Source of the DNA: Phycisphaerales bacterium UBA2421
GTDB lineage: Bacteria > Planctomycetota > Phycisphaerae > Tepidisphaerales > Tepidisphaeraceae
NCBI GenBank assembly: GCA_002343075.1
Contig: DDRH01000051.1
Span: forward strand, 107,111-171,110
Length of the DNA: 64,000 bases
Reading direction: 5' to 3'
The notes under the pieces are model-generated. The model searched no databases and was not told the origin of the DNA. It saw only the letters and a list, made by a program, of their open reading frames with translations. Positions 5,993-15,074 of the stretch are shown here, one piece after another; within the stretch, counting starts at the first letter, position 1; the number at the start of each line of letters is the position of its first letter. Made by a program: the position numbers and the translations under genes.

Positions 5993-7615
5993 ATGCAACC
6001 GATCCAATCACTCGACCGCCGACTGATGCTTTTCGCCGAACTCGTCGGCGAGTTCGCTTTTTTTCGAACGCTGGAGGTCACCGGCACGGCTGGCGACGAT
6101 GTCATCCGCATTGAATACAACAATGCTGGCGATCGGTACGTGGCGACGCTCAACGGCAGCTCGATGGACTTCGACCCGCTCGCGGTCTTCGCCGTCCGGG
6201 TCGAAGCCGCCGCCGGGAACGACTCGGTGTTCGTCGCCACGCGCGACGGCGGCGGCGCGGGACGCGGGGCCGAGGTTTTCGGCGGGCCGGGCAACGACAC
6301 GATCGTCACCACCGCCGGCAGCGACATCCTCCGCGGGGAGGACGGCGACGACTCGCTTGATGCCGGTCGCGGTGCCGACCAGCTCGTCGGCGGCGACGGC
6401 GACGACCAGCTGTTCGGCCGCGCCGGCCACGACCGGTTCGACCCCGGCACAGGCACCGACTTAGTCGACGGCGGGTCGGGCCGCAACCGCGTCTCCTACG
6501 GCGACCGCAGCGACGACCTGTCGCTCTCGCTCGACGGTGTCGCCAACGACGGCGCGGCAGGCGAGAACGACAACCTCCTGCGCATCCAAGACATCACCGG
6601 CGGCAGCGGCGACGACTCGATCGTCGGCAACGGCGGGATCAACGAGCTGAACGGCCTGCTCGGCGCCGACACCCTTCGCGGCCTCGGTGGAGGCGACTCC
6701 CTCAACGGCGGCGGCGGCGGGGTCGAGGATGCGACCGGCGACGACCTCGTCGACGGCGGGAGTGGCGATGACAAGTTAACCGCCGGCGAGGGCGACAACA
6801 CGCTCGTGGGTGCCGCCGGCGACGACCAGATCCGCGACAACACTGCCACCGGCGGAAACGACTCCGTCGACGCCGGATCCGGAAACGACACTGTCAGCTA
6901 CGGCCTCGGCCGCGACACGATCTTTGGTGGCAGCGGGAACGACCGCATCCTCGGCGGCGCGGGCGACGACGGCGACCTGCTCGACGGCGGCGGCGGCGAC
7001 GACAGCTTCACGCCGTCGAGTTCGTCGCCCGACACCATCCGCGGCCAGGCGGGCGACGACGTGATCCGCGCGTTCTTCGCCGACGGCAACCCGGCGACCT
7101 CGTTGTCCGGCGGCAGCGGAACCGACCGCCTGCTGCCTAGCATCGGTTTCGGGACAGCCATCGTGCGCATCTCGCTCGACGGCTTCGCCAACGACGGCTC
7201 GGCCGTCGACGGCGGCACAAGCAACGTCGCCGCCGATTTCGAGGCCATCCTGGCGCCAAACAGCACCGCCGACCTCTTGATCGACGTGAGCAGCCTAGGC
7301 GTCGGCGTGAGCGTGACCGGCGGCTTCGGCGACGACGTTCTGACCGGCGGGACGTCCAACGACGTCCTCGAAGGCGGCGAGGGCGACGACTCGCTCGTCG
7401 GCAACGCCGGCGACGACGTCCTCCGCGGCTTCACGGGCAACGACACCCTCACCGGCGGCCCCGGCCTCGACAGCTTTAACGGCGGTCGGGGAAACGACGT
7501 GTTGAACGCCGCCGATGGCGAGGCCGACACCGTCAACGGTGCCCAAGGCCTCGGCGACACCGCGGACATTGACGAACTGCTGGATACGCTGATCCGTGTT
7601 GAATCGACGACGTGA
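5993..7615 (+). CDS. secreted RTX-like calcium-binding repeat protein
   Basis: A 540-residue extracellular protein. Almost the whole length after residue 70 consists of hemolysin-type calcium-binding nonapeptide repeats (variants of GGSGDDxLxGG, for example LDGGGGDDSF, FGGSGNDRI, LEGGEGDDSL). The N-terminus (QSLDRRLML) resembles the short LExRxLL-type leader of large planctomycete surface proteins rather than a classic signal peptide. No protease or lipase domain is present, so it is probably a structural or adhesive surface protein. The ATG at 5993 is preceded by GGGAA 8 nt upstream. Very GC-rich with strong codon bias; no type I secretion genes are nearby. Confidence 0.8.
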   Translation: MQPIQSLDRRLMLFAELVGEFAFFRTLEVTGTAGDDVIRIEYNNAGDRYVATLNGSSMDFDPLAVFAVRVEAAAGNDSVFVATRDGGGAGRGAEVFGGPGNDTIVTTAGSDILRGEDGDDSLDAGRGADQLVGGDGDDQLFGRAGHDRFDPGTGTDLVDGGSGRNRVSYGDRSDDLSLSLDGVANDGAAGENDNLLRIQDITGGSGDDSIVGNGGINELNGLLGADTLRGLGGGDSLNGGGGGVEDATGDDLVDGGSGDDKLTAGEGDNTLVGAAGDDQIRDNTATGGNDSVDAGSGNDTVSYGLGRDTIFGGSGNDRILGGAGDDGDLLDGGGGDDSFTPSSSSPDTIRGQAGDDVIRAFFADGNPATSLSGGSGTDRLLPSIGFGTAIVRISLDGFANDGSAVDGGTSNVAADFEAILAPNSTADLLIDVSSLGVGVSVTGGFGDDVLTGGTSNDVLEGGEGDDSLVGNAGDDVLRGFTGNDTLTGGPGLDSFNGGRGNDVLNAADGEADTVNGAQGLGDTADIDELLDTLIRVESTT

Positions 7616-8313: not shown

Positions 8314-9159
8314 TCAAGCTCTGTTTGGCGCATCGACATGCACCCTCCGCCCCTCCACCCGCAATTGCCCCCGTTGAAAAAGCCGGATGGCCTCGGGGTA
8401 GGCGATGCATTCCTGTTCGAACACACGGGCGGCGAGGGTTTTGGCGGTGTCGTCGGGCAGGACCGGGCAGGGGCGCTGCAGGATGATCGGGCCGGTGTCG
8501 TAGCCGTTATCAACAAAATGCACCGTGCACCCACTCACCTTGCACCCGGCGGCCAGCACGGCCTCGTGTACCTTCTGGCCATACATGCCCTTGCCGCCGA
8601 AGCAGGGCAGGAGCGACGGATGGATGTTCATCACGCGTCCCTCCCAATGCTCGGGAACTTTGATGAGCGAAAGCCACCCGCCGAGCAATACCAGCTCGGC
8701 ACCGGAGTGTTCAACACGCGCGAAGATCTCGTCGCTGTAGGCATCGATATCGGCAAATGCCGCGCGCTCAACAATCGTATTCGGCACCGATGCGCGGGCG
8801 GCGCGTTCGATGCCGATGAGGCCCGGCCTTGAACCGATGACCAGATTCACCCTTGCGTTCAGCGACTTTGCGGCGATGCGATCGAGGAGATTTTGCAGCG
8901 TTGTCCCACCACCGCTGACGAGTACTGCGAGCGAAGCCGGCCGCACCGGATTGGTTCCGGTCAGATCACCCGGCTGCAACGTGGCAGCCGATCGGTTTTC
9001 GGCCTGAATGGCCTCGTAGACTTCGTGCCGGTGCACGCTGATCGATTTCGGGGCCTGTACGCCCAGCCGAACTTTGTCACCTCGAATGTCGACAACGGTG
9101 ACAATGACCTGCTCACCGATCATGATCGACTCATCCTTGTGTCGAGAGAGAACCAGCAT
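8314..9159 (-). CDS. purN: CsrA-PurN fusion: RNA-binding regulator joined to GAR formyltransferase
   Basis: A 281-residue protein with two complete domains. Residues 1-55 are a full CsrA/RsmA RNA-binding protein (starts MLVLSRHKDESIMIG, has GDKVRLGVQAPK and the RNA-contacting VHRHEVYEAI with Arg44). After a linker of about 20 residues, residues 76-275 are phosphoribosylglycinamide formyltransferase. That half has VLVSGGGTTLQNLL, the catalytic Asn178 and His180 in MNIHPSLLP, and Asp221 in GYDTGP. PurN transfers a formyl group from 10-formyl-THF to GAR in purine synthesis; CsrA binds GGA motifs in mRNA leaders. ATG 9159 has AGGGGG upstream, inside the hairpin of a repeat element. The open frame extends to 9429, but that extension is non-homologous and includes translated repeat. 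No frameshift or stop separates the domains. It follows ileS by 148 nt. Confidence 0.9.
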   Translation of the reverse strand: MLVLSRHKDESIMIGEQVIVTVVDIRGDKVRLGVQAPKSISVHRHEVYEAIQAENRSAATLQPGDLTGTNPVRPASLAVLVSGGGTTLQNLLDRIAAKSLNARVNLVIGSRPGLIGIERAARASVPNTIVERAAFADIDAYSDEIFARVEHSGAELVLLGGWLSLIKVPEHWEGRVMNIHPSLLPCFGGKGMYGQKVHEAVLAAGCKVSGCTVHFVDNGYDTGPIILQRPCPVLPDDTAKTLAARVFEQECIAYPEAIRLFQRGQLRVEGRRVHVDAPNRA

Positions 9160-9170
9160 TGTTTCTTTCC

Positions 9171-9210
9171 CCCTCTCTCGGCACTCCGGGAGAGGGCCGG
9201 GGTGAGGGTT
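9171..9210. repeat. palindromic dispersed repeat, copy 1 (upstream of csrA-purN)
   Basis: A 40-bp element with an imperfect palindrome at 9171-9196 (CCCTCTC...GAGAGGG arms) followed by GGCCGGGGTGAGGG. It matches the element at 14839-14878 at nearly every position outside the loop. On the minus strand its hairpin arm contributes the AGAGGGGG ribosome-binding site of csrA-purN, and its loop contains GGA. Confidence 0.8.
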
Positions 9211-14027: not shown

Positions 14028-15074
14028 TCACGCTGCCAGCAGCCGCGGCAACTCTGTTTCAATTGCCGACTTCCGTTCGATCATCCGCGCAACATCATAC
14101 TTCCCCCGCCCCTCGCTCGGCTGGGCATTCATTGCCTCCAGCCACCGATCGCGCAGCTCCCGCGCCGCCGACGCCAACCTCGGATCGCACGCGCGCTTCA
14201 CCCGCGGGGCCCTGGGCTTGGGCGTCCTGGCCAGCGCCGTCTCCGGCAACGGCTCCCCCGGCGCCGGAATATCAAACATCAATCCATTGCGGCGAAGAGA
14301 GTGCTGAGGACTGAGTGCTGCGGACTGAGCGGATTTCAACTGGCGTCGCTTCTTGGGCCTCGACTCAGCACTCAGTCCTGAGTCCTTGGCACTCTCGCTG
14401 CCCGGCAGCACCAACGGCTTGGCATCGCTCCAATGCGTGCCCGGTGGAATCGGCAGCACGATGCGATCCTCGCGAATCGATCCACCCGCCGTCTTGCTCG
14501 GAAACCACCACGGCGTCGTCTCATCGCCGGAACGAATCCGCTTCTGCCAGAAAATATGTACGCGCGGCGAACCCTTCGGCCCCTTCGTCTCACTACCCGC
14601 GCGAAACGCCAGCGGCACAAAACCCATCGCTTCCCAGAAGTGATTGGCTGCAATGTCCTGCGCGCACCAGCAACAATAAAGCTTGCACCCGTAAGCGCTG
14701 CGCTCGAACTGCGCCTTGAGCAGCGCCGCACCGATGAACCCGCGCTGCTTACCCGGCGCAACGTTCAACTGATAAATGATCCCCACATCATCGCGCTTGA
14801 AGTACTGGTCGTTGCCAATCAGATAGCCGACTCTTACTCCCTCTCCTGGTACTCCGGGAGAGGGCCGGGGAGAGGGCTCTTCTGCCACAAGCACATGCCC
14901 CAACTTAATCTTCCCCGCAAACGTCGCCGTCGGCATCCAGCCGACTTGCTTCGTGTGCAACTTCTGCAATGAATCCAGAAACGGAATGTCATCCATCGTG
15001 CCGGGGCGAATGTTGATCGGCACGCGCGGCTCGGGAAGCGCGACCGGCGAAGTTGAAACGACAATCTCGCTCAT
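14028..15074 (-). CDS. GNAT-family N-acetyltransferase carrying two repeat insertions
   Basis: A 348-residue protein. Residues 15-175 fit a GNAT acetyl-CoA-dependent acetyltransferase: INIRPGTMDDIPFLDSL, then GIIYQLNVAPGKQRGFIGAALLKA as the acetyl-CoA binding turn, then ANHFWEAMGFVPL. Between the first strands a Pro-rich stretch (PSPRPSPGVPGEG) is simply the translated palindromic repeat 14839-14878. A second inverted repeat (14297-14396) is read through near residues 227-260. Both keep the frame open. ATG 15074 (MSEIVVSTS) is preferred over the upstream frame, which is translated repeat. The C-terminal third has no recognised domain. The substrate is unknown, and the inserted loop may or may not allow folding. 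Confidence 0.7.
   Translation of the reverse strand: MSEIVVSTSPVALPEPRVPINIRPGTMDDIPFLDSLQKLHTKQVGWMPTATFAGKIKLGHVLVAEEPSPRPSPGVPGEGVRVGYLIGNDQYFKRDDVGIIYQLNVAPGKQRGFIGAALLKAQFERSAYGCKLYCCWCAQDIAANHFWEAMGFVPLAFRAGSETKGPKGSPRVHIFWQKRIRSGDETTPWWFPSKTAGGSIREDRIVLPIPPGTHWSDAKPLVLPGSESAKDSGLSAESRPKKRRQLKSAQSAALSPQHSLRRNGLMFDIPAPGEPLPETALARTPKPRAPRVKRACDPRLASAARELRDRWLEAMNAQPSEGRGKYDVARMIERKSAIETELPRLLAA
14297..14396. repeat. inverted repeat pair inside the GNAT gene
   Basis: Arms at 14297-14329 and 14363-14396 both begin (in opposite orientation) with GAGAGTGC and contain GGACTGAGTGCTG-type repeats of the actcagcactcagtcc family. They are separated by 33 bp. The element is translated in frame as a Ser/Lys/Arg-rich segment of the GNAT protein. 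Confidence 0.7.
14839..14878. repeat. palindromic dispersed repeat, copy 2 (inside the GNAT gene)
   Basis: Same 40-bp element as 9171-9210, with the shared core ACTCCGGGAGAGGGCCGGGG. It forms a near-perfect 26-bp palindrome at 14839-14864. Translated on the minus strand it gives a Pro/Gly-rich peptide of the PSPRPSPGVPGEG type. Confidence 0.8.

Follow-up and report, generated by a model that had tools for sequence, protein, structure and literature searches.

The window analysed here, a 64,000-nucleotide stretch of a Phycisphaerales genome (bacterium UBA2421), encodes a CsrA domain and a PurN domain in a single open reading frame at 8314..9159 on the minus strand. Translation of this strand from ATG 9159 to the stop at 8314 gives 281 amino acids plus the stop and contains zero internal stops; frame 1 of the plus strand over the same coordinates is interrupted by a stop. 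The preliminary description had placed the gene correctly at these coordinates without naming a strand, which is the minus strand. The CsrA domain (8992..9159, minus strand; residues 1-56) includes L4, R6, V42 and R44, which we take to be the RNA-contact residues of CsrA. It is followed by a linker derived from the native CsrA tail (8938..8991, minus strand; residues 57-74) and by the PurN domain (8314..8937, minus strand; residues 75-281 plus the stop), in which N178, H180 and D221 are presumably the catalytic Asn, His and Asp, by analogy with E. coli PurN.

Each half of the protein exceeds a curated equivalog cut-off, and the claim that one ORF holds a complete CsrA and a complete PurN is thereby borne out. 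The NCBIfam CsrA equivalog (PRK01712) matches residues 1-57 with 90.2 bits (cut-off 73) and the PurN equivalog (TIGR00639) matches residues 76-268 with 173.6 bits (cut-off 150.1). The corresponding Pfam matches cover residues 1-52 (CsrA, 82 bits against a cut-off of 27) and 77-258 (Formyl_trans_N, 148.5 bits against 26.1), and among solved structures CsrA chains cover residues 1-55 and PurN chains about 77-275. An AlphaFold monomer model has a mean pLDDT of 67.2 and a pTM of 0.61. It is poor in the CsrA part (block means of 37-62 pLDDT over residues 1-60), where a monomer cannot settle the fold, and has a low-confidence stretch in the linker (residues 58-71).

The frame extends upstream of the ATG, to 380 residues from stop to stop, and the family start MLVLSR coincides with ATG 9159. 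The database copy of the protein (P0002, 269 amino acids) begins instead at Met13 (9121..9123, minus strand) and therefore omits the first strand of CsrA. Because residues 1-12 are CsrA-like, with L4 and R6 kept in all 18 fused rows that cover this stretch, we consider ATG 9159 the better start and judge the Met13 start to be wrong. Within the linker, a codon listing contains no ATG, and GTG codon 72 (8944..8946, minus strand) is the sole candidate internal start immediately ahead of PurN.

The leader of the gene contains, upstream of the start codon, a piece of a short dispersed repeat of the CCTCACCCCGGCCCTCTCC type (9189..9207, minus strand) that recurs in the window at 14857-14875 (minus strand) and occurs at seven places in the genome with at most one mismatch, against none for the reversed control. 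Compared with shuffled versions, the leader shows no excess folding (z -0.06; 89 of 200 shuffles fold equally well or better). The hairpin pattern was unmatched, and we make no claim of hairpin-based autoregulation. Elsewhere in the window, a 540-amino-acid ORF at 5993-7615 (plus strand) has many GGxGxD-type repeats and resembles, by eye, an RTX calcium-binding protein.

Distribution and conservation of fused proteins

The preliminary description had proposed looking for the CsrA-PurN architecture among Phycisphaerae proteins. A full-length search (best 120 of 7985) returned 22 fused clusters besides the window's own, at 54-74% identity, and a search with the alignment of fused proteins returned 24 other full-length CsrA-PurN clusters (best 120 of 6802; 8000 candidates scored). 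In the latter, fused proteins score at least 420 bits and the first unfused protein 374. A search with CsrA only yielded two further fused proteins, both truncated (P0197 and P0212), and one fused protein, P0012, already carries a double name in one source. Because the architecture recurs in 24 other full-length clusters drawn from several public sources, CsrA-PurN is a genuine protein type, with chance and sequencing artefact excluded. No CsrA-PurN or CsrA-deaminase protein was found in the literature searched (titles and the starts of abstracts). The two domains are known and, as far as this literature goes, the architecture is new, in agreement with the earlier impression that it had not been described.

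Both halves retain their key residues, as had been claimed for the window protein. In the fused alignment R44, N178, H180 and D221 are each kept in 23 of 23 rows, the last three aligned with those of solved PurNs, and V42 is kept in 22, with Ile in the remaining row. I51 is present in all 23 fused proteins and N55 in 22, position 7 is variable, and in the CsrA tree the branches of several fused CsrAs are long. Mean pairwise identity among the 18 rows with a full N-terminus is 70.2% for CsrA and 64.6% for PurN compared to 46.0% for the linker, which indicates that both domains are under constraint. Linker length ranges between 19 and 53 residues. In relatives, stand-alone CsrAs often finish in a tail such as AAQVKPEDLSG, and the fused proteins retain a version of it (AATLQPGDLTG in the window) with PurN after it.

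Whether the fusion arose once or repeatedly was addressed with a PurN tree of 98 rows (23 fused, 72 unfused and three RNase H-fused). Of 97 unfused database proteins, 52 were entered; four fell to the domain cut and the rest were left out by sampling. Of the 29 loci L117-L145, 23 were entered, as six did not pass the motif or length cut, and P0236, P0237, P0197 and P0212 were not in the tree. The fused rows form six groups: the window protein with P0003-P0005 (support 100/91), P0006, a six-member group, a nine-member group, P0009 with P0010, and P0008. The tree requires six changes of the fused label, of which well-supported branches force only two, and a single fused clade costs 43.5 log units and is not rejected (AU p 0.069). 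A CsrA tree (66 columns; 25 deaminase fusions out of 30 listed were included) does not resolve the branching. The fusion may have arisen once, with later losses, or several times, and we claim no number of origins.

Among the genomes examined, the fusion is rare, and we know it here from protein databases. Names carried by close unfused PurNs suggest that the host falls within Tepidisphaeraceae or near it. CsrA is present in 26 of 26 genomes of the family. In the 25 other than the host, the best CsrA (22 of 25 read) lies in a frame of 84-203 codons, which is too short for both domains. PurN was matched at 1e-40 in 22 of the same 25 genomes (none from G001, G018 or G153), and the match ranges listed for 20 of them (G011 and G016 excluded) all start at residue 55 or later. 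A CsrA-PurN fusion was seen in none of the 25 and is therefore no general family trait. In the class sample, 365 of 397 genomes match the fusion query at 1e-40 and CsrA was found in 377. Among the class matches listed, the weak end excluded, only the window's own spans residues 1-281; three start at residues 33-34 (G045, G297 and G380) and one starts at residue 16 (G276) and carries an RNase H motif. A scan of genome contigs with the fused alignment used two PurN motifs, kept the best 80 loci and is a poor test of named genomes. A motif search of the loci recognised PurN in only part of them, and CsrA shared its frame in no copies other than the window's own. By tblastn, CsrA accompanies PurN among the scanned loci only in these copies (L001, L003 and L116). 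Adjacent but separate csrA and purN genes did not occur among the scanned loci, and the route to fusion was not seen there.

CsrA-PurN belongs to a wider pattern, in which CsrA also precedes deaminase and GNAT domains. Among the best 120 of 350 proteins in a search with the CsrA part (lengths of about 155-491 amino acids), 74 are CsrA alone and the partners of the others are a cytidine/deoxycytidylate deaminase (30), PurN (8, the window's own included), a GNAT acetyltransferase (5: P0179, P0183, P0193, P0199 and P0232), FliW (2) and an AraC helix-turn-helix plus GyrI-like region (a single example, P0213); Pfam was rerun on one deaminase protein, one GNAT protein (P0179) and the AraC/GyrI protein. 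The preliminary statement that CsrA normally stands alone accordingly needs qualifying, since related bacteria fuse it to other domains as well. Within the family, fusions of CsrA to a cytidine/cytosine-type deaminase occur in 10 of 26 genomes, nine read directly (L147-L155, in G015, G005, G022, G001, G012, G013, G006, G019 and G020) and the tenth, G023, judged by coordinates that share one frame. Each of the ten genomes additionally has a CsrA in its own shorter frame. One database protein, P0122, consists of two tandem CsrA copies in 192 amino acids. PurN also has another N-terminal partner in other families of the class, where RNase H lies ahead of it (L135:1477-2589, minus strand, and, by motif, L130 and L134).

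CsrA, PurN and FliW in the host genome

The host assembly (4.47 Mb in 67 contigs) is 91% complete and might therefore have missed a fliW or a stand-alone csrA. A check for a stand-alone csrA in this 91%-complete genome, suggested in the preliminary description, found no canonical one; the genome contains a single full CsrA match, which is the fusion, plus a weak partial one. The latter is a 139-amino-acid ORF (L158:1496-1915, plus strand, on contig C17 of the host, G000) whose translation scores 34.7 bits in a protein scan (cut-off 27). It resembles a split and expanded CsrA and has Gln at the R44 position. It adjoins UbiE-like, UbiX-type flavoprotein and UbiA-like genes, and similar two-part CsrA-like matches occur in three other genomes (G002, G008 and G019).

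The fusion is also the only protein in the host genome over the PurN cut-off. The runner-up (126.5 against 150.1) is PurU-like and has an ACT domain, and the best match to PurT is below its cut-off (164.3 against 502). A cytidine/deoxycytidylate-type deaminase is present, unfused. The genome encodes flagellins, and the 91%-complete assembly contains no match to FliW (PF02623).

In relatives, csrA sits in a flgL-fliW-csrA-flagellin cluster. At the 30 csrA loci read (22 from the family and eight from the class), a FliW-cluster gene was found at 26, a FlgL-cluster gene at 25 and a flagellin-cluster gene at 23; one locus was confirmed with Pfam, which gave FliW, Flagellin_N and, on the FlgL-like piece, Flagellin_C. 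The host carries flgK and flgL on contig C57 (FlgL TIGR02550, 207 bits against 127). Beyond flgL, the remaining 2.1 kb of this contig show neither fliW (tblastn) nor CsrA (genome-wide search), and neither gene lies beside the flagellins on contigs C63 and C32. The simplest interpretation is that fliW and csrA were lost from the flgL locus, although the assembly is incomplete. Because the fusion is the sole canonical CsrA found, and the cluster that houses csrA in relatives appears here without fliW or csrA, the fusion probably serves as the working CsrA of the cell. Planctomycetes are listed in the conclusion of PMC4682653 as one of the groups that may use FliW.

Function of the fused protein

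We favor, with a probability of roughly 0.7, a bifunctional CsrA-PurN that took over from a lost flagellar-locus csrA. In such a protein the N-terminal domain would pair with a second chain to form the usual CsrA dimer, which would bind GGA-type sites in mRNA, and the C-terminal domain would be the cell's GAR formyltransferase in purine synthesis. A flexible linker that seems to have grown out of the native CsrA tail would tether PurN, so that a CsrA dimer would bear two enzyme heads. The flagellar-locus csrA would have been lost along with fliW, with the fused copy taking its place. Since one protein would supply both canonical CsrA and PurN, the amounts of the two would be tied.

Alternatively, the single ORF could give rise to two products, with internal initiation in the linker or proteolysis freeing PurN, and the fusion would then mainly couple expression. 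The loosely conserved linker is consistent with this possibility, as are GTG72 just ahead of PurN and the linker Met of another clade, in which seven of nine proteins carry Met-Lys some nine residues upstream of the PurN core, resembling an old purN start. The linker of the window protein lacks an ATG, however, and its nearest relatives (P0003-P0005) have no Met at the linker end before PurN, and we regard separate products as possible but unlikely.

The earlier suggestion that the protein is an allosteric sensor, in which PurN substrates or products alter RNA binding by CsrA, draws on the position of the enzyme. According to the relevant part of PMC7829508, which also lists R44 as an RNA-contact residue, FliW binding in C. 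jejuni requires V51, N55 and the C-terminus of CsrA, beside the R44 RNA pocket. PurN is joined at this same end, in a genome in which, at 91% completeness, FliW was not found. A linker of 19-53 residues with loose sequence speaks against rigid coupling, and we consider a sensor improbable. A broader proposal, that PurN replaces FliW as a built-in ligand-dependent switch and that CsrA serves as a plug-in N-terminal module for PurN, deaminase and GNAT alike, strikes us as doubtful too. Were PurN such a switch, purine and one-carbon status would directly set CsrA activity; were CsrA such a module, metabolic enzymes would control, or be controlled by, RNA.

It is very improbable that the CsrA part is a mere dimerisation or expression tag for PurN that has lost RNA regulation. 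The variation at position 7 and the long branches of several fused CsrAs might be read this way, but R44 is invariant in the 23 fused rows, L4 and R6 are kept wherever they are covered, and conservation of the CsrA domain equals or exceeds that of PurN. An assembly or sequencing artefact that joined two genes has next to no probability: the draft state of the assembly and the absence of the fusion from every other family genome examined could have hinted at one, but the 24 full-length clusters of the same architecture from several public sources already refute it.

Comparison with known CsrA and PurN systems

The fusion shares with CsrA/RsmA (PF02599; TIGR00202, PRK01712) a score over the family cut-off and the residues L4, R6, V42 and R44. 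CsrA/RsmA is normally a small separate protein, whereas here one open frame continues through PurN and CsrA forms the N-terminal part of an enzyme. Relative to PurN (TIGR00639), the fusion exceeds the equivalog cut-off and keeps N178, H180 and D221, and differs by the CsrA in front. PurN-type enzymes are also known in fused form from eukaryotes, and trifunctional GART entries are among the solved-structure matches.

Known controls of CsrA are sRNA decoys and FliW. In the FliW-CsrA pair the partner is a separate protein, whereas in CsrA-PurN the partner is an enzyme joined covalently, in a host genome in which FliW was not found. FliW relies on the C-terminal side of CsrA, as far as the C. jejuni findings in PMC7829508 extend; in CsrA-PurN that end carries PurN. 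If CsrA occurs solely as part of a biosynthetic enzyme in a cell whose genome yielded no FliW, it would link metabolism directly to mRNA control.

Further parallels are the CsrA-deaminase, CsrA-GNAT and CsrA-AraC/GyrI proteins, which have the same layout of CsrA, native tail and second domain and differ in the partner. CsrA-deaminase coexists with a stand-alone csrA in the family, whereas no stand-alone canonical csrA was found beside CsrA-PurN in the 91%-complete host genome. That CsrA recurs ahead of several enzymes suggests that these bacteria have a set of enzyme-linked CsrA proteins that is little explored.
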